DNA of 20,467 nt, from positions 1 through 20,467 of the IMG/VR virus record IMGVR_UViG_3300036761_001128. One strand, written 5' to 3'. A program made the position numbers and the translations under genes. This document shows positions 286 to 20,467 of this stretch, one piece after another. Each line of letters begins with the position of its first letter. The stretch's first letter is position 1. The notes under the pieces were generated by a model. That model worked only from the letters and a program-made list of their open reading frames with translations. It made no database searches and was not told where the DNA came from. This stretch comes from a virus.

Positions 286-732
286 TTATATGCGTGCAGC
301 TCTACGCCGCAGTACTTCTTTTTTGAGGTTGCAGTTAGCGCACAGCACTTGATACCCAGAGGGGTAGTCGTGCTTCCTTAGATGGTTATAAAGTTTATCC
401 CCACCACAAGAAACCATAAACAACTTTCCGGTTCTTGAAGCCCTAACAGTTCGCTCCTTACAGCCATCGTTGTTAACGTGGTCTAAGCACAGAACATCTA
501 GGTCTCCATGCCCACACCACTTACAAACAGCATCGCCATTTGAGTACATATTGATGGCCGCTTCTTTGTTTAGAAAACGATAGTCATTGGTTTTCTTCCT
601 GTTCACGGCCAGATTGTCTTGACGATATTGCGCCGAGTATGCTTGGCGATTTTTATTTTCACGGTTTAGCTGCAAGATGTGTCCGCGGTTAGCGTAATAA
701 TACTGACTTTGATATTGAGGGCTGTGGTTCAT
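286..732 (-). CDS. HNH endonuclease, probable free-standing homing type
   Basis: 148 residues. A basic, asparagine- and tyrosine-rich N-terminus is followed by a zinc-ribbon type HNH core: C70-K-W-C73, then L-D-H-V-N-N-D-G (residues 83-90, with the H of the HNH triad), L-Y-N-H-L-R-K (114-120) and C131-A-N-C134-N. This is the arrangement of phage HNH nicking or homing endonucleases that cut DNA near their insertion site. The start overlaps the upstream gene's stop (ATGA). It sits between a small head gene and the portal, a place where such genes often intrude. Its base composition is clearly more AT-rich than its neighbours, suggesting separate acquisition. It could instead assist terminase cleavage, as HNH proteins do in some phages, but it is far from the large terminase gene's start. 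Confidence 0.85.
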   Translation of the reverse strand: MNHSPQYQSQYYYANRGHILQLNRENKNRQAYSAQYRQDNLAVNRKKTNDYRFLNKEAAINMYSNGDAVCKWCGHGDLDVLCLDHVNNDGCKERTVRASRTGKLFMVSCGGDKLYNHLRKHDYPSGYQVLCANCNLKKEVLRRRAARI

Positions 733-4237: not shown

Positions 4238-4353
4238 GTACTACCTAGGGAGAAGATGCGAGGGACGTACGACCTAGGGAGATGATGGGAGGGGCGTACT
4301 ACCTAATGAGAAGATGCGAGGGACGTACGACCTAGGGAGATGATGGTGATGAC
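4238..4353. repeat. Four 29-bp tandem repeats (iteron-like)
   Basis: Units 4238-4266, 4267-4295, 4296-4324 and 4325-4353 abut exactly. Shared core: GTAC(T/G)ACCTAGGGAGA(A/T)GATG. Units 1 and 3 resemble each other (GTACTACC, GAAGATGCGAGGGAC), as do 2 and 4 (GTACGACC, GATGATGG), so there is a 58-bp higher-order period. Three of four contain the palindrome CCTAGG; unit 3 has CCTAAT. There are no spacers, so this is not CRISPR. Most likely binding sites for a replication or partition protein, or a regulatory array. Confidence 0.8.
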
Positions 4354-6321: not shown

Positions 6322-6441
6322 ATGCTCAGCTCGTGTGCCCGTAGCACAGCGACAGATCGTAGCGCAATAAGTAATCCTGGCATCACTCCCGCTCTAATGA
6401 AGAGCAGAGGGAGAAAGAAAGGGGCCGGTGACTTCAGATGA
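6322..6441 (+). CDS. 39-residue basic ORF coupled to next gene (paralogue of 7578-7700)
   Basis: From ATG 6322 the frame reads M-L-S-S-C-A-R-S-T and ends A-L-M-K-S-R-G-R-K-K-G-A-G-D-F-R-stop. The end is nearly identical to that of the 40-residue ORF at 7578-7700 (A-L-M-K-S-R-G-R-K-K-G-A-G-V-F-T), and in both the TGA overlaps the next ATG as ATGA. The start is weak (no ribosome site), and the frame is open much further upstream. It could be a small basic protein, a regulatory leader peptide, or a by-product of the duplicated DNA element. Confidence 0.35.
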   Translation: MLSSCARSTATDRSAISNPGITPALMKSRGRKKGAGDFR

Positions 6442-6444
6442 ATT
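6374..6444 (+). repeat. 71-bp direct repeat, copy 1
   Basis: Matches 7633-7703 over 71 bp with 7 mismatches and no gaps; the central 35 bp are identical. It contains a small hairpin GCTCT-AATGA-AGAGC, a purine-rich AGAAAGAAAGGGG, and the ATGA that ends one ORF and starts the next, at the same offset (64 bp) in both copies. Confidence 0.85.
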
Positions 6445-6668
6445 TTCAATCGGTGTCATTATTCGATCAATTTTGGTCGCATTACCCCGCCCGTAACGGC
6501 AGGCCGAAGGTCGGGAAGCAGCCGACACTGTTGCTGTTCCGTGAGCTGGACGAGTCGGAGCAGGCCGACTGCGTGCAAGCGGGCATGTTTCAAGTCTACT
6601 CATCACCTCATGCGAGCCGGCGCGCCGTCGCCGGCAGATTGGACGAGCACCATGAGCAGCGTGACTGA
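6438..6668 (+). pseudogene. Truncated duplicate of the 10054-10434 gene
   Basis: The first 49 or so residues (MNFQSVSLFDQFWSHYPARN...) match the protein at 10054 (MNQAISLFERFWSHYPARN...) almost residue for residue through L-L-L-F-R-E-L and C-V-Q-A. After about 6587 similarity stops and the frame runs into unrelated sequence (G-M-F-Q-V-Y-S-S-P-H-A) before TGA at 6666-6668. No matching sequence is found in another frame just downstream, so this is truncation or recombination, not a simple frameshift. A shortened protein could still be made, since the start and leader are intact. Confidence 0.7.
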
Positions 6669-6693
6669 TATGACGGGCCATAGGACAGGCACT

Positions 6694-7581
6694 ATGACAG
6701 GCACACGGCTATCATTCCGGGGAGATGATTGCCTTAAACGTGCGGTGGTCGAGCGCGTGCGGGAGCATCAACGCTTGGATCAGATGGCCCAATCCATCTA
6801 TTGGGACGGCAGCAAGGGCTGTGCGATTGGCTGTGTACTGCACAGCAGCGAGCATATGGCGTTTGAGCAACAGTTGGGTCTGCCGGTGTTTCTCGCCTAC
6901 ATGGTCGAGCATATTTTTGAAAGACTACCGCTGGAGCAGGCGAAGGGATGGCCGTTGCGGTTTCTCGAGGCGGTGCCGGTCGGGGTGGACCTGACGTTGG
7001 TCTGTCCGCGCTACCTGCTGTGGCTCTTGAGTGATCCTGACGGAGTACGACGCTACGCCGATGCGCGGACGGTGCCGATCATGGATACGCTGGTGGCGAT
7101 GTATGCAAGACGGGTTGAGGGTATCCCGTTTGACGTGGCCGCCGCAAGTGACGCATGGGCCGCCGCACGGGCCGCCGCATGGGTCGCAGGGGCCGCAGGG
7201 GACGCCGCCGCACGGGCCGCCGCACGGGCCGCCGCATGGGTCGCAGAGGCCGCAGGGGACGCCGCCACACGGGCCGCCGCACGGGCCGCCGCATGGGTCG
7301 CAGAGGCCGCAAGGGACGCCGCCACAGAGGCCGCAGGGGACGCCGCATGGGTCGCAGAGGCCGCAGGGGACGCCGCCACACGGGCCGCCGCACGGGCCGC
7401 CGCATGGGTCGCAGAGGCCGCAAGGGACGCCGCCACACGGGCCGCCGCTATGCAAAGGCAGGCCGACTATCTCATCACGCTGCTCCAGGGCTATACGAGT
7501 CAGCCGTTGGCCGATCTGCCACCTTGCACCGAGCAATTACAGGCGCTCCATTTTACCGTGAAAGGAGGAGGCACGCAATGA
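6694..7581 (+). CDS. Alanine-repeat protein with conserved N-terminal domain, function unknown
   Basis: 295 residues from ATG 6694, preceded by AGGACAGG; upstream in-frame ATGs at 6652 and 6670 are possible but less well placed. The N-terminal domain (about 1-150) has Y-W-D-G-S-K-G-C-A-I-G-C-V-L-H-S, then L-G-L-P-V-F-L-A, H-I-F-E-R-L-P, W-P-L-R-F-L-E-A-V-P-V-G-V-D-L and L-L-W-L-L-S-D-P. I recall this pattern in uncharacterised bacterial and phage proteins, often followed by alanine-rich repeats. Here the repeat part (about residues 158-251) is five 18-19 residue units, then a short unique tail. The repeats predict a long amphipathic helix with regularly placed W, R, E and D. No enzyme motif is apparent. 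It ends in ATGA with the next ORF after a strong ribosome site. Confidence 0.75.
   Translation: MTGTRLSFRGDDCLKRAVVERVREHQRLDQMAQSIYWDGSKGCAIGCVLHSSEHMAFEQQLGLPVFLAYMVEHIFERLPLEQAKGWPLRFLEAVPVGVDLTLVCPRYLLWLLSDPDGVRRYADARTVPIMDTLVAMYARRVEGIPFDVAAASDAWAAARAAAWVAGAAGDAAARAAARAAAWVAEAAGDAATRAAARAAAWVAEAARDAATEAAGDAAWVAEAAGDAATRAAARAAAWVAEAARDAATRAAAMQRQADYLITLLQGYTSQPLADLPPCTEQLQALHFTVKGGGTQ
7165..7446 (+). repeat. Five tandem 57-bp (one 54-bp) coding repeats
   Basis: Units 7165-7221, 7222-7278, 7279-7335, 7336-7389 (54 bp) and 7390-7446 encode variants of ARAAAWVAEAAGDAATRAA. Codons are drawn from a tiny set (GCC, GCA, CGG, GGG, GAC, ACA, GTC, TGG, GAG, AAG). The unit is itself built from a shorter GCCGCACGG-like element. 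The repeat keeps all frames open on both strands, so the many other ORFs here are artefacts. Confidence 0.9.
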
Positions 7582-7700
7582 CTAGCATGCGCCGTAGCGC
7601 AACGATAATATCGAATAGTGGCGCAAGAGAAGATCCTGGCATCCCCCTCGCTCTAATGAAGAGCAGAGGGAGAAAGAAAGGGGCAGGTGTATTCACATGA
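7578..7700 (+). CDS. 40-residue basic ORF (paralogue of 6322-6441)
   Basis: MTSMRRSATIISNS... ending A-L-M-K-S-R-G-R-K-K-G-A-G-V-F-T. Its ATG overlaps the alanine-repeat gene's stop (ATGA) and is preceded by a strong GGAGGAGG at about 7565-7572; its TGA overlaps the next ATG (ATGA). It therefore has better translation signals than the first copy. The C-terminal half lies in the 71-bp repeat. Small, strongly basic; perhaps nucleic-acid binding or a coupling leader. Function unknown. Confidence 0.5.
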   Translation: MTSMRRSATIISNSGAREDPGIPLALMKSRGRKKGAGVFT

Positions 7701-7703
7701 ATT
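7633..7703 (+). repeat. 71-bp direct repeat, copy 2
   Basis: Second copy of the 6374-6444 element, 1259 bp downstream, again placed immediately before a gene start. The bracketed segment holds the truncated duplicate gene and the alanine-repeat gene, so recombination between copies would delete or multiply that cassette. Confidence 0.85.
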
Positions 7704-9171: not shown

Positions 9172-10057
9172 GGAAGTCTCAAAACAATCCGGCGAGGACT
9201 GGACGTTGTACCACGGCGACTGCGTGCGCGTGGTCTCAGCCTTGGAGGATGAGAGCATCGGCCTCTCGGTCTTCTCTCCCCCGTTCTCGAATCTCTATAT
9301 CTACTCGGACTATTTGGAAGATATGGGGAACTGTGCGACCCATGAGGAGTTCTTTGCGCACTTCTCCTACTTGATTGAGCAACTCTATCGCGTGACGAAA
9401 CTGGGCCGACTCTGTGCTGTCCATTGTAACGATCAAACGCGGCAGAAGGGCATTGAAGGCGTCTGCGGTCTGTACGATTTCCCTGGCGAGATCATTCGCC
9501 AGTTTGAAGCGAAGGGCTGGACATTTCATAGCCGCGTGACCGTGTGGAAAGATCCGGTGATTGAAATGCAGCGGACCAAGAACATCGGCCTGCTGCATAA
9601 GCAGATCAAGAAAGACTCCTGCGCCTCACGCATGGGCCGCGCTGATTATATTCTGACGTTCCGCAAGAACGCGCTGAACGAAGCGAACTACCCCGATCCG
9701 GTGACTCATACCGCTGAGGATTTTCCGGTTGAACAGTGGCAACAGTGGGCCTCGCCTGTTTGGATGGATGTCCGTCAAACGCACGTCTTGCAATACCGAG
9801 ACGCCAAAGACGATGAGGACGAGCGGCATATCTGCCCCTTGCAGCTCGATGTGATCGAGCGGTGCATTGCGCTCTGGTCGAATCCTGGCGATGTGGTGCT
9901 CAGTCCGTTTGCTGGCATTGGAAGCGAAGGGTATCAGGCCTTAACGATGAAACGAAAATTCATTGGAGCAGAACTGAAGGATTCCTATTTTGATGTGGCT
10001 GTGCGAAACATGGAGACAGCCATTGCCGAACGTCAACAAGGATTGTTACCACTATGA
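9146..10057 (+). CDS. DNA methyltransferase, N4-cytosine/N6-adenine class, beta-type
   Basis: 303 residues. Catalytic motif IV is S-P-P-F (44-47), preceded by L-Y-H-G-D-C; the AdoMet-binding motif I is S-P-F-A-G-I-G-S-E-G (253-262), followed by F-I-G-A-E-L. Motif IV before motif I is the beta arrangement of amino-methyltransferases. SPPF leaves the target base (C or A) open. No restriction endonuclease is adjacent, so it is probably an orphan enzyme that protects phage DNA or marks it, working with the overlapping helicase. Start is supported by AAGGAGG about 4-8 bases upstream, inside the helicase gene. Its end overlaps the next gene as ATGA. Confidence 0.9.
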   Translation: MLNLRIRGEEVSKQSGEDWTLYHGDCVRVVSALEDESIGLSVFSPPFSNLYIYSDYLEDMGNCATHEEFFAHFSYLIEQLYRVTKLGRLCAVHCNDQTRQKGIEGVCGLYDFPGEIIRQFEAKGWTFHSRVTVWKDPVIEMQRTKNIGLLHKQIKKDSCASRMGRADYILTFRKNALNEANYPDPVTHTAEDFPVEQWQQWASPVWMDVRQTHVLQYRDAKDDEDERHICPLQLDVIERCIALWSNPGDVVLSPFAGIGSEGYQALTMKRKFIGAELKDSYFDVAVRNMETAIAERQQGLLPL

Positions 10058-10434
10058 ATCAAGCTATCTCATTATTTGAGCGGTTCTGGTCGCATTATCC
10101 CGCACGCAACGGCAGGCCCAAGGTGGGCAAGCAGCCGTGTCTGTTGCTGTTCCGTGAGTTGGAGGAGTCCGAGCAAGCGGAGTGCGTGCAGGCCGCGAAG
10201 CATTATGCGAAGGCGAGCAAGCCGAAAGCTGATGGGTCGTTCACGCCGGAAGCGAGAGACGCGATCCGCTTCCTCAAGCAGGACTGGTGGCGGGATTGGG
10301 TGGAGGGGCCTGCGGTGGTCTGTAACTTTCGCATGACTCCGGCCTGTAGTAGCGCGGTACTGGACGGCACCGAAACCTGCGAGTTTCATATTGCGTATAG
10401 AGCCAAGCTGGAAAGGCTGAAGGTGGGGACGTGA
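10054..10434 (+). CDS. Phage early protein with FWxxYPxRxG motif (replication-associated?)
   Basis: 126 residues. The N-terminus S-L-F-E-R-F-W-S-H-Y-P-A-R-N-G-R-P-K-V-G resembles the F-x-x-F-W-x-x-Y-P-x-K-x-G-K element seen in several phage replisome-organiser or DnaT-like proteins. A helical region E-E-S-E-Q-A-E-C-V-Q-A-A-K-H-Y follows, then W-W-R-D-W-V and two cysteines (T-P-A-C, E-T-C-E-F-H) that could bind metal. It is coupled to the methyltransferase by ATGA and to the next gene by GTGA. A truncated copy lies at 6438. Role in replication is suggested only by the motif. Confidence 0.6.
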   Translation: MNQAISLFERFWSHYPARNGRPKVGKQPCLLLFRELEESEQAECVQAAKHYAKASKPKADGSFTPEARDAIRFLKQDWWRDWVEGPAVVCNFRMTPACSSAVLDGTETCEFHIAYRAKLERLKVGT

Positions 10435-12110: not shown

Positions 12111-12295
12111 TGGAAACCTACAGCCAAGCCAAGCGAGCCAACTGGCCGCGACCCACCTGTATTGTGTGCCATGCGCCCTGTGCCTACGACCGGGAGTTTC
12201 GAGGGGCCACACTGTGCCAAAGTTGCTACCGCGAGGAACCCTTATTCATCACAAGGAAGGAGCTATTATGCAAGCCGTTGCCGTCCATAGCCTAG
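12110..12295 (+). CDS. 61-residue zinc-finger protein
   Basis: METYSQAKRANWPRPTCIVC then H-A-P-C-A-Y-D, and L-C-Q-S-C-Y-R-E-E. Two CxxC knuckles 24 residues apart; the L-C-x-x-C-Y-R pattern is like those in GATA- or HNH-like zinc fingers without the catalytic histidines. The start overlaps the previous stop (TAATG); the last 28 bp overlap the recombinase gene. Unknown function. Confidence 0.6.
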   Translation: METYSQAKRANWPRPTCIVCHAPCAYDREFRGATLCQSCYREEPLFITRKELLCKPLPSIA

Positions 12296-13071
12296 ATAGT
12301 GAGAAAGTGGCCCTGATTAAGCAGACCGTCGCCAAGGGCGCGACCGACCTGGAACTGGACCTGTTCCTCCACGCCTGTAAGCGCACGGGCCTGGACCCGC
12401 TCATGCGCCAGATTTACGCCATTAAGCGCAAGAACAACAAGACGGGCAAAGAGGAAATGTCGATTCAAACGGGCATCGACGGCTACCGCCTCATTGCCGA
12501 CCGGACTGGGCAGTATGCGGGCAGCGATGAAGCGACCTATCTCCTGGGCGAGGATGGATTCCCCGATGTGGCCTCAGTGACGGTCTATAAACTCGTTGGG
12601 GGACTCCGGTGTGCCTTCAGTTCGTCGGCGCGATGGAAGGAATATGCCCAACCGACCGGCCAGATGTGGCAGAAAATGCCGTTCCTCATGCTGGCGAAGT
12701 GCGCGGAAGCCTTAGCGTTACGAAAGGCGTTTCCCGCTGAACTGAGCGGCGTCTATACCCATGAGGAGATGATGCAGGCCGATACCGCCCCTGCGACCCC
12801 TGGACTCACCTATGACAAGAAGTACCCTGGACCCAATATCGTGCCTCCACAGGCCAGCACGGGGCCCTCTGAGCGTACTCCTGGGGTGGACCTGGGGCAA
12901 GACCTGGCGGACAAGGTGGCGTTGGCGCAATCGGTGGCGGAATGTGCGGCGGTGGGGAACGAGATTGAGGCCGCCATTCTGGTATCCGATGAGGATAAGC
13001 GGGCGTTGCGGGTGATGGTGAGTCAACGGCTCACGGAATTGACCGTGCCTGCGAAGGCCAAGAAAGGCTAA
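12268..13071 (+). CDS. bet: Single-strand annealing recombinase, Bet/RecT family
   Basis: 267 residues. The family binds single-stranded DNA and anneals complementary strands in phage recombination and replication. Diagnostic stretches: D-L-E-L-D-L-F-L-H-A-C-K-R-T-G-L-D-P-L-M-R-Q-I-Y-A, then Q-T-G-I-D-G-Y-R-L-I-A-D-R-T-G-Q-Y and P-F-L-M-L-A-K-C-A-E-A-L-A-L-R-K-A-F-P. The C-terminal quarter is variable, as usual. The start is M-Q-A-V-A-V-H-S with AGGAAGGAG 7 bases upstream; the longer frame from 12166 is a shadow of the zinc-finger gene. A matching exonuclease is not evident, but the PD-(D/E)XK nuclease at 13877 lies in the same operon. Confidence 0.9.
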   Translation: MQAVAVHSLDSEKVALIKQTVAKGATDLELDLFLHACKRTGLDPLMRQIYAIKRKNNKTGKEEMSIQTGIDGYRLIADRTGQYAGSDEATYLLGEDGFPDVASVTVYKLVGGLRCAFSSSARWKEYAQPTGQMWQKMPFLMLAKCAEALALRKAFPAELSGVYTHEEMMQADTAPATPGLTYDKKYPGPNIVPPQASTGPSERTPGVDLGQDLADKVALAQSVAECAAVGNEIEAAILVSDEDKRALRVMVSQRLTELTVPAKAKKG

Positions 13072-15883: not shown

Positions 15884-16025
15884 GCTTCACCGGCTGTTTC
15901 GCGCCCTTGCGTTTAGGACAGTACCGTGTCGCGTGCGCGTAGCCTTCGTCGTGCCTGAGTTCTTGCAGGCAGAGCGGGCACAGATACGGTTCGCCTTTCT
16001 TGCGGCGTATGAGGAGCTTCTTCAT
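15876..16025 (-). CDS. 49-residue zinc-ribbon protein
   Basis: M-K-K-L-L-I-R-R-K-K-G-E-P-Y-L-C-P-L-C-L-Q-E-L-R-H-D-E-G-Y-A-H-A-T-R-Y-C-P-K-R-K. CPxC, H and C residues form a compact C2H-C type knuckle between two basic ends. The start overlaps the endolysin stop (ATGA) and the stop lies inside the next gene's start. It is an odd member of a lysis cassette. Not in most ORF lists because of its length. Confidence 0.6.
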   Translation of the reverse strand: MKKLLIRRKKGEPYLCPLCLQELRHDEGYAHATRYCPKRKGAKQPVKRE

Positions 16026-16384
16026 ACTTGGACCTGTGAGGCGCGGCCTGTTGGCGAATCAGGGTAATAATCCCAACATACGTCAGCCGGGTGCGTCGTC
16101 GAGATGCCAATGTGAATGAAGGTATTGCCAATCCCGATGCGCCGCACGCCCATCGAGAACAGTTCCCGGAGCATCTTGTACCGCGTCGTGGACCGTTGGC
16201 AGAGCACGTCCGCCGCCATCGAGGGGTCTGCCGTATGTTCACTCACGGCCACGCCACCGACCTCGCGGTTATGCTCGACGGTGCGATAGCCACTGGTCAC
16301 TTGAATTTCAAAACCTAATCGATGCTCTAATAGCGTCAGTACGGCCATTAAATCTGGGTGAAGATTTGATGTTTGACCTGTCAT
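16022..16384 (-). CDS. Endolysin, peptidase M15 family
   Basis: 120 residues. The family cuts peptide bonds of peptidoglycan cross-links with a zinc ion. Visible: S-G-Y-R-T (31-35), the zinc motif around S-E-H50-T-A-D-P-S-M-A-A-D59-V and the late zinc ligand F-I-H91-I-G-I. Helical parts and length fit M15_3-type phage endopeptidases. No signal peptide, so release needs a holin; several membrane genes follow. Start fixed by ATGA. Confidence 0.85.
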   Translation of the reverse strand: MTGQTSNLHPDLMAVLTLLEHRLGFEIQVTSGYRTVEHNREVGGVAVSEHTADPSMAADVLCQRSTTRYKMLRELFSMGVRRIGIGNTFIHIGISTTHPADVCWDYYPDSPTGRASQVQV

Positions 16385-16551
16385 GCTGAAATCCCTAGAT
16401 ACGCTTGAAACATCAACGTCAGCCGCTTCACCTGGGCGGCGGTCAGTTCCTCGCTAATCACCATGGCCGCCATATAGACCCCATCACTGGCATTGATCGT
16501 CCCGGCAGCACTGGTTTGGAAATTCCCCACCGCTGCCGTCTTGTTGTTCAT
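16381..16551 (-). pseudogene. C-terminal remnant of a LamG-like tail protein (56 codons from an internal ATG)
   Basis: The frame M-N-N-K-T-A-A-V-G-N-F, then G-V-Y-M-A-A-M-V-I-S-E-E-L-T-A-A-Q-V-K-R-L-T-L-M-F-Q-A-Y-L-G resembles the last strands and closing helix of LamG/concanavalin-like domains (...A-x-x-x-R-A-L-T-x-x-E-V-x-x-L). It is open upstream to 16605 without a start (N-A-N-S-G-G-A-Y-V-A precedes the ATG). A 13-codon ORF (16548-16589, MTRTPTVAEPMSP), with AGGAGG upstream, ends by ATGA at this ATG, so the remnant may be translated by coupling. It ends with ATGA into the endolysin. Best read as the tail of an older receptor-binding gene, displaced by the present spike. Confidence 0.5.
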
Positions 16552-16634
16552 GGCGACATAGGCTCCGCCACTGTTGGCGTTCGTGTCATCGTCTCGCCCT
16601 CCTGATTAGTTACTCACATCCGCCGCCGTGCGGC

Positions 16635-18761
16635 CTACTCCGTCCGTATCTCTAGCTCGGAGTTCCAGGTGATGTTCGTGGCGGCAACCCCTGTAATTCT
16701 GCCTCTGGCAAAGTTCCCTGTCACATCAATCGTCTGGTCCCATGCCGCGTTGCTTTCCACCTCGTAGGTCGATTGCACGGCCCCTTGCAATACCGCCCCG
16801 GCTCCATCTCGATAGATCAGCGCCGACTTGTTGTACATGGCGCGGTCGCTGGCATCATCTTTCATGCCCACCGTGCGAAGCGTGATCTGGGCGGCGGAGT
16901 TGTCGTTGAGCAAGGCATAGAACACGTTGGTGACGGTCGCGTTCGTGGTGGCTTGCCCGTGGAAGCGGTGGCGCACGTAGAGGCGCGTGGGCATGTAATC
17001 AAAGAACAGCCCGTCGCTCGTCTCGTGCCCCTTGGCTTCGTTGTCGATGATGCGAATATCGCTCACGGTCTGCGCGGCGGAGTTGTCGTAGTACACAGGA
17101 TATTTCTGGTGCTGCCCCGCGTTGTTGGTCATCTTGTTGTTGGAGACCGTCACCGAACCGAGCGTGGCCCCTGCCGCTGATTTGATGTAGACGCCAGAGA
17201 CGTTGGCCGTGTTCGACGTGTTGTTATCTTCGAGGTGATTGCCCGTGACCAGCACATTCTGCGCGGCTTCGACTTGAATCCCTGCGGAGGAATTTAGATA
17301 ACAATAATTCCCCTCGACCAGAACATTGTTGTCGCTCTGCACGAAGATGCCTTGGGAGCTAACATTCACGCCGTTGCTGTAGACGATGTTCCCCCGCACC
17401 AGGTAGCGCCCAAATTGTTGCGACGAGGCGGCTGAATTTCGCACCGCAATGCCGTAGCCTTCGACGGTGCCCTGCCCGTTGCTGTAAACCGTATTACCCT
17501 CGATGCGCACATACATCGAGTTGTAGTAGGGGCCAGTGCCAGTCGTGGCGGCGTAAATGCCAATCCCCTGACATAGGGAGACGTAGTTACCGACGATGGA
17601 GATATTGATGCCACCGAGGCACTGGATGCCAGGGGTGTTGGTGTTCCCCGTACACGACCTGACATGGTTTCCTCTCACGGTAAAATTCTTCGTTTGCGTG
17701 GAGGTGTTGACCCCAGATTTGGTGGTCGCTTCAATCAGACAATGCTGAATCGTGCCAGAGGAGCCGATTTCACCAATGGCCCCCGCCGACGTGCCAATCC
17801 CGTTCACGCCTTGGGTTCCCGATTCGCCAGGCGTTCCGCCGCCTGTGACCCAGACGTGATCCACGAGGACATCGATGGCGTTGTTGAGCGTGATGAGTCC
17901 GGCGTCCAACTGCCCCTTGAGCGAGCCGTCCACTTTGAAGTCACGCAACACCACGCCGTTGATTGCGGCATAGGCCACACCCTGGACGAGGATAGGGAGA
18001 AAGCGAGTGACCGCCGAGTCCGCCTTAATAATCGACCCCCAGCCTGCCCCCACGAGCTGCATCGTCTTGGTGATGAGGAGTCGGTCAGTTGTTTTATACG
18101 TCCCAAGCGGGAGGAACACGGTGCCGCCCGTCACTTGTGCCGCTGTGATCGCGGCATTGATGGCCACAGTGTCATCGGTCGTACCGTCCCCAATTGCGCC
18201 ATAGTCCTTGACGTTGAATATCTCTGCAAACCGTGTCGCCAGCAGGCGGGCCGTGGTGGAGCCGGTGGCGGTGACGGAGGTGCCGCTCGCGGTTTGCCCA
18301 TCGACCACTGAGGGATTGCCACTGCCATCGAAGGTAAAGTATTTATTGGCCCGAGTCGCCACCACGGGGATACTCGCAATCGAGGCTTCCGTCACCGGCA
18401 CCGTGAGAGACCGCGTGAGCCGCTCGTCGAACTGCTGGTTCCCCATCACGGCGAGATCGAGGTTCTTCTCCGTCGTCTTGGCGGGGAACGCCCCTGCCAC
18501 GTCATAGACGGAGAGCTGCGTGAGAGGCACCACGCGCAGCAACAGGACTTGGACGCCGGTCCCAGGGGCCACGGTAAAGGTGACGTAATTCGCGGTCCAT
18601 GGGGACAGGATGCCGCCCACGGTGTAGCCCGTTGTGGCGAGCACCCCGTCTCGATAGACTTCGAGATGGGCCGCCGCGTAGAGCAAGCGGTTAAAGTAGA
18701 AGACGGTGCTCACACTGTCGCCCGTCGCCACCACGCGGTTACTCGTGCTCGTCAGTGCCAT
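16635..18761 (-). CDS. Tail spike, T7-fibre-like N-terminus with pectate-lyase-like beta-helix
   Basis: 708 residues. The first 120 residues (M-A-L-T-S-T-S-N-R-V-V-A-T-G-D-S-V, ...T-T-E-K-N-L-D-L-A-V-M...D-E-R-L-T-R-S-L) match the virion-attachment domain of T7-type tail fibres. From about 182 (F-N-V-K-D-Y-G-A-I-G-D-G-T-T-D-D-T-V-A-I) comes the Pectate_lyase_3 start, then many short beta-helix repeats (V-x-G-N-x-V-x-x-C, G-I-x-V-x-x-S). The C-terminal part (about 590-708) is a probable trimerisation or receptor domain. Spikes of this type bind and often degrade surface polysaccharide. Ribosome site GGAGG 6 bases upstream. The gene overlaps the remnant ORF at its 5' end. Confidence 0.9.
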   Translation of the reverse strand: MALTSTSNRVVATGDSVSTVFYFNRLLYAAAHLEVYRDGVLATTGYTVGGILSPWTANYVTFTVAPGTGVQVLLLRVVPLTQLSVYDVAGAFPAKTTEKNLDLAVMGNQQFDERLTRSLTVPVTEASIASIPVVATRANKYFTFDGSGNPSVVDGQTASGTSVTATGSTTARLLATRFAEIFNVKDYGAIGDGTTDDTVAINAAITAAQVTGGTVFLPLGTYKTTDRLLITKTMQLVGAGWGSIIKADSAVTRFLPILVQGVAYAAINGVVLRDFKVDGSLKGQLDAGLITLNNAIDVLVDHVWVTGGGTPGESGTQGVNGIGTSAGAIGEIGSSGTIQHCLIEATTKSGVNTSTQTKNFTVRGNHVRSCTGNTNTPGIQCLGGINISIVGNYVSLCQGIGIYAATTGTGPYYNSMYVRIEGNTVYSNGQGTVEGYGIAVRNSAASSQQFGRYLVRGNIVYSNGVNVSSQGIFVQSDNNVLVEGNYCYLNSSAGIQVEAAQNVLVTGNHLEDNNTSNTANVSGVYIKSAAGATLGSVTVSNNKMTNNAGQHQKYPVYYDNSAAQTVSDIRIIDNEAKGHETSDGLFFDYMPTRLYVRHRFHGQATTNATVTNVFYALLNDNSAAQITLRTVGMKDDASDRAMYNKSALIYRDGAGAVLQGAVQSTYEVESNAAWDQTIDVTGNFARGRITGVAATNITWNSELEIRTE

Positions 18762-18849
18762 GCGTGCCTCCTGTCAGTTTAATGTAGAAGGTCTTGGTCA
18801 CACTGTCGCCGGTGGCGACGACGCGGTTCGAGGAGGAGGTCAGTGCCAT
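18739..18849 (-). pseudogene. Remnant duplicate of the tail-spike N-terminus (36 codons)
   Basis: Reads M-A-L-T-S-S-S-N-R-V-V-A-T-G-D-S-V-T-K-T-F-Y-I-K, matching the first 24 residues of the spike at 18 positions, then runs out of frame into the spike start and stops at 18739. At seven of the 18 shared residues the codons differ, including two serine family switches (TCC/AGC, TCG/AGT). That is too much silent change for a recent copy. It points to two diverged spike genes sharing this attachment segment. ATG 18849 has no strong ribosome site. Confidence 0.75.
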
Positions 18850-18862
18850 AATTATTCCTATT

Positions 18863-20467
18863 TTACGGACTGATTGATGGTGCTGATAATCGTCCCGGTG
18901 CAAACCTGTTTGGTTTTGTCGGCCATCCTTCTTGTTGTCTCTCCGTTTTCATATCAAGTTTATTACGGATTTCCTCATATTCGTTAAGGAATGCGTCTTT
19001 TCCTGACTGACGATGGTTTGACACTATTTGTTGGACTTGCCGTTCAGCTTCCGTATCATCAAGGGATTCACTATCCCCTGCCCATGTTGATAGATCCTCT
19101 GGTAATCCGTCCGTCACGGCATCAAGATATTTGTCGTATAGGTTTGCTGAGAGTGGGACGCCATCAATTTCCTTTGCCGGTTTTGTCAGGACGATATTGT
19201 GTGCCTTGAGGGCTTGCCATATTGCAGGATCTTCTGATTCCAACCCATGACTAAACGCATTCCACCATCCCCCGCGTCGGTAGATGATCCGTCCAAGTGC
19301 ATTCTTCTCTGCGGGTAAGGTATCGGAAAGTCCTGGCGTCATTTGTTTCAGATGGTCAATGGTGTCAATCGCCAAGCGTGTTTGAGGATCTAGCCCGCCT
19401 GTGATCTGTCGCAAGGCACCTGAATAGGGCACCGTGGCACTGACAAACGCATGATTGAACCAGTCTGAATACGACTCAAAATCCCCAGAGAGCGCCGTAT
19501 TGAGTGTGCCCACTAATCCTTGCGTCCACTGTTTGATGCCCACATTCCCGACGACGGCCAACGCCAGAGCTTGAAATCCTTCATTCAGTTGGTCGATCTT
19601 GTCTGGAGGCGTATAACTCATTAAGTCCACCATATCGGCTACGGACGACGTGAGGGTGCAGAAGGGTTCAAAGGCGGTACAGGAACGATAGGATTTCGTC
19701 ACAGGGTCCCACCACGCATTCGGAATTTTCCCTGTTGCCTCTATCCAATGTTGTTTGGCATCTTGTCCACGAGGTCCATTGCCCGTAATCAACCCTTCCC
19801 TAGCTAACCCATACATCGTATCTAGCATAACGGTTGAGAATCCGATTTTCGCCAATTGCGTCAATCTCCGTGTCCCACCCGCATTGATTTCCGCACGGAC
19901 TGCCGGAGAAATAAGAGACAACGGACCAGTGTATTCAGCTGCCATCTTCGACACATTCGCCATGATGTTCGTAAACGGCATGAGCCATCGTCCCACAGGG
20001 AATCCTGATGGAAACCCAGCTTCACGAGGTCCAATCGTCAAGGTATCGGCGATTCGTCCCACGGATTTCGCTGCTGTGCCTAATTCCTCCTGCAACGCCA
20101 CATATTGGGAGAACCGTTTGGCATCCTCAACCAATTCTGGGTACCGATCTGGATTCGCCATCACGTCCCGCCTGATATTCTGCACACGTTGTACAGCTTC
20201 CACCCCGGTGAGTCCTTCTTGTTCCACCGTTTGATAGGCCAAGCGCAATGCCAGTGCACGGAGTTCTGCTTGATGCGCTCCCACTTTGTTTGCGGTATCG
20301 CCAGCTAAGAGCATCCTACCGCCCAACGTCGAGGCGAGGTCAATCCCTTGTGTCGTCCACCGCCGAGCGGAGGTTGACATCCACGAGGTCGCAAACCCCA
20401 TCGGACCAGTCGTATAGAGCCAGAGCGCGGTATCAGAGACTTGTGGTATCGTATGTTCAAGTTTGGA
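18863..20467 (-). CDS. Giant internal virion protein, C-terminal part (5' end outside window)
   Basis: At least 534 residues; the frame is open through 20467 (S-K-L-E-H-T-I-P-Q-V... precedes the first ATG at 20401), so the apparent start is internal. A segment W-L-M-P-F-T-N-I-M-A-N-V-S-K-M-A-A-E-Y-T-G-P is like the P-F-x-x-T-P-x-N hydrophobic hinge of large phage internal virion and polyvalent proteins that line the DNA-ejection channel. The surrounding region is alanine-rich and partly amphipathic. It precedes the spike in transcription. Base composition is lower in G+C than the spike gene. Stop is TAA at 18863-18865. Exact family needs the rest of the gene. Confidence 0.6.
   Translation of the reverse strand, partial: SKLEHTIPQVSDTALWLYTTGPMGFATSWMSTSARRWTTQGIDLASTLGGRMLLAGDTANKVGAHQAELRALALRLAYQTVEQEGLTGVEAVQRVQNIRRDVMANPDRYPELVEDAKRFSQYVALQEELGTAAKSVGRIADTLTIGPREAGFPSGFPVGRWLMPFTNIMANVSKMAAEYTGPLSLISPAVRAEINAGGTRRLTQLAKIGFSTVMLDTMYGLAREGLITGNGPRGQDAKQHWIEATGKIPNAWWDPVTKSYRSCTAFEPFCTLTSSVADMVDLMSYTPPDKIDQLNEGFQALALAVVGNVGIKQWTQGLVGTLNTALSGDFESYSDWFNHAFVSATVPYSGALRQITGGLDPQTRLAIDTIDHLKQMTPGLSDTLPAEKNALGRIIYRRGGWWNAFSHGLESEDPAIWQALKAHNIVLTKPAKEIDGVPLSANLYDKYLDAVTDGLPEDLSTWAGDSESLDDTEAERQVQQIVSNHRQSGKDAFLNEYEEIRNKLDMKTERQQEGWPTKPNRFAPGRLSAPSISP

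Follow-up and report, generated by a model that had tools for sequence, protein, structure and literature searches.

The receptor-binding proteins of T7-like podophages are modular, and their specificity moves horizontally (PMC8262889; PMC7693777). Klebsiella phages KP32 and K11 and Pectobacterium phages Q19 and PP47, for example, combine a conserved N-terminal anchor with an exchangeable C-terminal specificity domain. Tailspike exchange on a conserved anchor is already known; a scar readable at both ends is not often seen, and a partial literature search found no description of the same two-ended scar. Swaps of receptor-binding genes determine which hosts a phage can infect, and as a rule they are deduced only from genome comparison. 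RecT/Redbeta-type enzymes are known to recombine phage DNA that is 22% diverged and to drive mosaicism, divergence of this order being accepted by RecT and Redbeta in lambda and Phi80 (PMC3945230).

We analyzed a 20-kb IMG/VR fragment from a T7-like podovirus, hereafter the window, which is the complete record (20,467 bases, end repeats absent). Its minus strand carries a T7-like late block in the order internal virion protein C-terminus, spike, endolysin, lysis-type genes, terminase, and portal. As in the modular T7-like tailspikes, an anchor plus beta-helix spike is placed after the internal virion protein genes. However, in KP32/K11 and Q19/PP47 the anchor is kept while the C-terminal domain changes, whereas in the window a whole gene would have entered with its own anchor and ribosome site, the old anchor start being left behind. 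Since both cut ends are readable in one genome, the positions of the joins can be read, and they indicate exchange of a whole gene plus its ribosome site, not merely of a C-terminal domain. The locus is of value as an example in good preservation, and possibly as a signature for searches. The features concerned are as follows.

18863..20467, minus strand: internal virion protein D-like gene, C-terminal part, in the T7 gp16 position (PHROG internal virion protein, E 3e-11)
18739..18849, minus strand: 36-codon stub ORF, codons 1-24 read as a diverged second allele of the spike virion-anchor start (sequence comparison)
18762..18777, minus strand: left join, 16 nt past the last matching stub codon, including the spike AGGAGG at 18772-18767 (sequence)
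16635..18761, minus strand: intact 708-residue tailspike, anchor about 1-140, pectate-lyase-like beta-helix about 181-563 (Pfam, anchor profile)
16606..16634, minus strand: right join zone, at most 29 nt, from the spike stop to the headless coding frame (sequence)
16381..16605, minus strand: headless C-terminal coding remnant, 74 codons (codon score)
16022..16384, minus strand: peptidase M15 endolysin, next after the old fibre module (PF08291, E 8e-14; PHROG endolysin, E 4e-17)

The internal virion protein piece has tblastn matches to internal virion proteins of T7-like phages. Its GC3 (18863-20401, minus strand) is 0.50, falling to 0.35 over the last 100 codons, against 0.60-0.83 in the other measured late genes, and this gene may itself be an exchanged module. 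GC3 was set aside as a sign of a foreign segment: only the internal virion protein gene is low, and stub, spike, and terminase are alike, so that this measure does not settle the direction of transfer. Rfam and tRNA scans of the window gave no matches.

Two diverged starts of the spike anchor

The spike body matches Pfam Pect-lyase (E 7e-18) and Beta_helix (E 4e-14), both above cut-off, and is thus a right-handed beta-helix. Its N-terminal anchor of about 140 residues matches the fibre of Manatee Spring podovirus at 43% (E 2e-23) and is retrieved at E 5e-43 by an anchor profile built without the window. The best solved relative of the anchor family is the Dpo31 tailspike of Cobetia phage Carin1 (PDB 28lx/8ck1), annotated as a validated depolymerase. 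The anchor profile, in which Carin1 is itself one row, matches Dpo31 in the PDB at E 1e-42, and the window spike alone does so at E 4e-8.

Upstream of the spike, the initial annotation had reported a 36-codon remnant repeating the spike N-terminus, and this was reproduced. The stub ORF (18849-18739, minus strand) translates as MALTSSSNRVVATGDSVTKTFYIKLTGGTHGTDEHE followed by a stop, and is identical to spike residues 1-24 at 18 of 24 residues and 53 of 72 nt (74%), with 7 synonymous and 6 replacement codon differences among the 24 codons. The likeness reaches E 5e-10 in BLASTP and a local score of 88, against a shuffle maximum of 48 (n = 2000), and chance is excluded as its source. Each start has a Shine-Dalgarno-like motif of its own, AGGA (18859-18856) for the stub and AGGAGG (18772-18767) for the spike. 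The two copies are spaced 88 nt start to start, their likeness covers the first 72 nt only, and the sequences upstream of the two ATGs are unrelated.

Under a model of neutral decay, about 12.5 of 24 residues would still be identical after 19 random changes, and at least 18 identities have a probability of 0.00085. A decaying duplicate would not have conserved the protein to this extent, and both starts therefore appear to have diverged as working alleles under selection on the protein. This agrees with the earlier proposal that the silent differences mark two separated alleles and not slippage. At the nucleotide level, the 74% identity between stub and spike exceeds that of either, 58% (stub) and 64% (spike), to the fibre of the closest relative having a tail module (L013).

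The position of the stub was then set against that of fibre genes in other phages. Although terminase relatives of the window are 82-94% identical, only L013, a whole 17.9-kb contig, extends to the tail module; aligning the terminase against bacterial genomes gave no matches. We compared 13 relatives with related anchors, 12 of them with readable upstream sequence; YeP5 was left out of the distances because its record begins at the fibre. In 12/12 readable relatives, the distance between the preceding gene and the start of the anchor-bearing fibre is between -20 and +82 nt. L013 carries an intact 553-residue fibre, its anchor 65% identical, that shares 20 nt with the internal virion protein gene; the overlap is 4 nt in Manatee Spring podovirus, and ten further phages range from -4 to +82 nt. 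The latter value is that of Carin1, which has a single fibre start and no stub, whereas the window has one. The stub ATG, 13 nt past the internal virion protein stop, fits this spacing, and the spike start, 101 nt past it, fits less well. Searched with a profile of the relatives' anchors, none of the 13 showed a second anchor start; in the window, the stub is the next-best match to the anchor profile, in the right register but weak (E 0.1). Given its canonical position and the lack of a second start in relatives, the stub is best read as the start of the old fibre, in an arrangement peculiar to this genome: the three pieces do not recur as separate intact genes among these relatives, where a single fibre start was seen in 12 and no second anchor in 13. 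The canonical stub position and the protein-conserving divergence together support the initial annotation in its main claim, that the tailspike replaced an older receptor-binding gene.

The headless downstream frame

Downstream of the spike, the frame 16605-16381 has no start codon at its head, a TAA standing just before it (16608-16606), and its TGA (16381) overlaps the endolysin ATG by 4 nt (ATGA). No out-of-frame control window reaches its codon score of 0.443 bits/codon (95th percentile of these windows, 0.025), and 82% of true in-frame windows score lower. Judged by codon usage, this frame is the downstream end of a genuine gene. The C-terminus described earlier as headless, open to 16605, and LamG-like is thus confirmed as a coding C-terminal end, but the LamG label was not confirmed: neither Pfam nor PHROGs gave a LamG match, Laminin_G_3 (PF13385) included, at E<=10. 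A LamG-type end is suggestive only, the remnant coming fifth among 301 in a comparison with a home-made profile of phage LamG sequences, with only its last 40 residues leaning to LamG (20 of 3000 shuffles score equally well). Structure prediction on the remnant alone was uninformative (pLDDT 58).

A single gene with a stub-like start and a remnant-like end, which the earlier note had suggested looking for, was not found among the relatives searched; viral and bacterial contigs, screened by anchor alignment and anchor DNA patterns, held no gene joining both remnants. No homologue of the remnant was detected by phage tblastn (E<=10) or in viral contigs, and no relative of it among endolysin neighbours in 31 loci; one weak match (L019) was rejected because it lies outside the fibre gene of that locus. 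Close relatives of the tail region are almost absent from the viral and bacterial collections. Nor did any relative show the remnant as part of a different, non-fibre gene. Stub and remnant may be the two ends of the same old gene, or may come from different genes.

The strongest competing explanation, possible though less likely than not in our estimate, involves two events or two genes: the stub would come from the old fibre and the headless tail from another downstream gene, such as one for an additional receptor-binding protein or an accessory virion protein, which that exchange or a different one had truncated. A further virion-type gene directly follows the anchor-bearing fibre in Lederberg, phiVC8, VP2, and ZP6, and the headless tail is without a detectable homologue, both of which favor this explanation. 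However, it needs one gene more than the single-gene reading does, and the ATGA overlap and compact gene order are compatible with either.

Joins and proposed route of exchange

The sequence left between recognizable pieces is 16 nt on the left and at most 29 nt on the right, so that the incoming piece corresponds to approximately one gene plus its ribosome site. The left join is displaced by about 90 nt and falls 24 codons inside the old gene. This speaks against the route first proposed, recombination through the conserved anchor, which would leave one hybrid anchor, whereas two anchor starts are present. A homologous crossover in the anchor is ruled out by the complete incoming gene with its own Shine-Dalgarno and by the second anchor start. 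Gene replacement itself is well supported.

We propose the following course of events. In the T7-like ancestor, a single fibre gene bearing the anchor would have followed the internal virion protein gene directly and preceded the endolysin, with or without one further gene between. A complete tailspike gene from a related phage would have been joined in, carrying its own ribosome-binding site and little else, the left join falling 24 codons into the old fibre gene and the right join just before the final 74 codons of whichever gene stood ahead of the endolysin. As the incoming gene was whole, the phage would have remained viable while its receptor specificity changed, and the severed ends of the resident gene or genes would have stayed as scars. 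Selection for a whole, expressed spike would retain such sloppy, displaced joins. The likely mechanism is annealing by the RecT of the phage itself, or else illegitimate joining, when relatives infect the same cell, because a second stub of the same type occurs in this genome (see below).

Taken as a whole, this account of a tailspike brought in by displaced joins, with resident gene ends left as scars, is in our view probable. The two starts, their protein-conserving divergence, the stub position, the coding tail, the RecT gene, and the second stub are seen in the sequence; which way the gene moved, that it did so in one event, that both ends belonged to one old gene, that RecT was the agent, and that host specificity changed are inferred. 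The displaced joins count against the account, since phage mosaics are mostly homology-driven in the system described in PMC3945230.

Two further explanations both appear improbable, and to a similar degree. The stub ORF could act as a functional leader, translation through the overlapping spike start coupling or regulating spike expression; its stop lies 22 nt downstream of the first base of the spike start codon, and in a predicted fold the spike Shine-Dalgarno is base-paired to stub codons (RNA structure z -2.2). However, with an opening energy of 11.3 the spike start does not stand out among genes of this genome (8.2-16.4), and 14% of synonymous stub recodings reach that value, and hence a leader acting through RNA structure is not claimed. 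Alternatively, the locus could be an assembly chimera of two co-occurring strains, as might be suspected of a single metagenomic contig holding two such junctions. This would need an exact shared k-mer at non-homologous places, namely around fibre codon 24 of one strain and in the spike leader of the other, whereas the two starts are 74% identical without a long exact match and the pieces keep a sensible order, ribosome sites, and the 4-nt gene overlap. Finally, slippage, in which a local tandem duplication of the spike's own start left a decaying upstream copy, is suggested by the direct tandem placement 88 nt start to start but is largely refuted and very improbable, given that the likeness (74% identity) ends at 72 of 88 nt with unrelated sequences before both ATGs, that the protein is conserved beyond what a decaying stub would show (P = 0.00085), and that the headless tail is left unaccounted for.

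A second stub, gene X, and RecT

Self-comparison of the window revealed another truncated start, in the early region, and profile searches a recombination gene.

6446..6580, plus strand: second scar, a 45-codon diverged start of gene X (self-comparison)
10054..10434, plus strand: intact gene X, 126 residues, unknown function, with the matching start (self-comparison)
12166..13071, plus strand: RecT-family single-strand annealing protein (PF03837, E 6e-29; PHROG, E 5e-49)

The stretch 6446-6580 matches codons 3-47 of gene X at 38 of 45 residues and 81% nucleotide identity, with 14 silent differences. Third positions hold 20 of the 26 differences between the copies, and none of 20,000 neutral simulations was as conservative. 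Helicase and methylase genes lie between the gene X stub and intact gene X. The stretch directly upstream of the stub (6356-6444) recurs in front of the helicase gene, at 7615-7703 (plus strand), and consequently the helicase-methylase-gene X block may be a displaced insert, joined in the same manner as the spike. The repeat itself, standing ahead of two genes, is 89 nt long and 84% identical with an exact 19-nt core, AGAGGGAGAAAGAAAGGGG, and is possibly a promoter or leader element.

Like the temperate phages in which relaxed RecT/Redbeta recombination was described (PMC3945230), the window has a RecT-family gene, and its exchanged alleles are 19-26% diverged; it differs in having displaced joins rather than allelic crossovers, and in that the action of RecT is here presumed. 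With a second stub and a RecT gene in the same genome, one recombination habit in this lineage, in which RecT would play a part, is the economical reading, and the second stub, belonging to an early gene, suggests a shared, testable mode of exchange. We tentatively extend this to a broader conjecture that we consider unlikely as it stands: the lineage would gain genes again and again when exchange with close relatives is displaced (unequal), probably via its own RecT; each event would leave, immediately before the cargo, a diverged start from the allele that was displaced, and stubs of this kind would serve as a general fossil by which swaps of receptor-binding genes can be searched for.

Several other features were observed in the window. 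An ORF at 6541-7581 (plus strand) contains a long Ala/Trp-rich repeat of related 12- and 21-nt units, 11 overlapping copies of which were found. An HNH-like ORF (286-732, minus strand) lies between terminase and portal; it carries the motif CKWCGHGD...DHVNNDG...CANCN, has no Pfam match, and sits in a stretch that does not align to two other loci, L006 and L007, whose terminases are 93-94% identical to that of the window. Downstream of the terminase gene, a 65-nt tandem duplication at 1224-1353 is 94% identical, and 29-nt spaced tandem repeats of the GTACGACCTAGGGAGATGATGG type occupy 4238-4346, where the two transcription directions meet.
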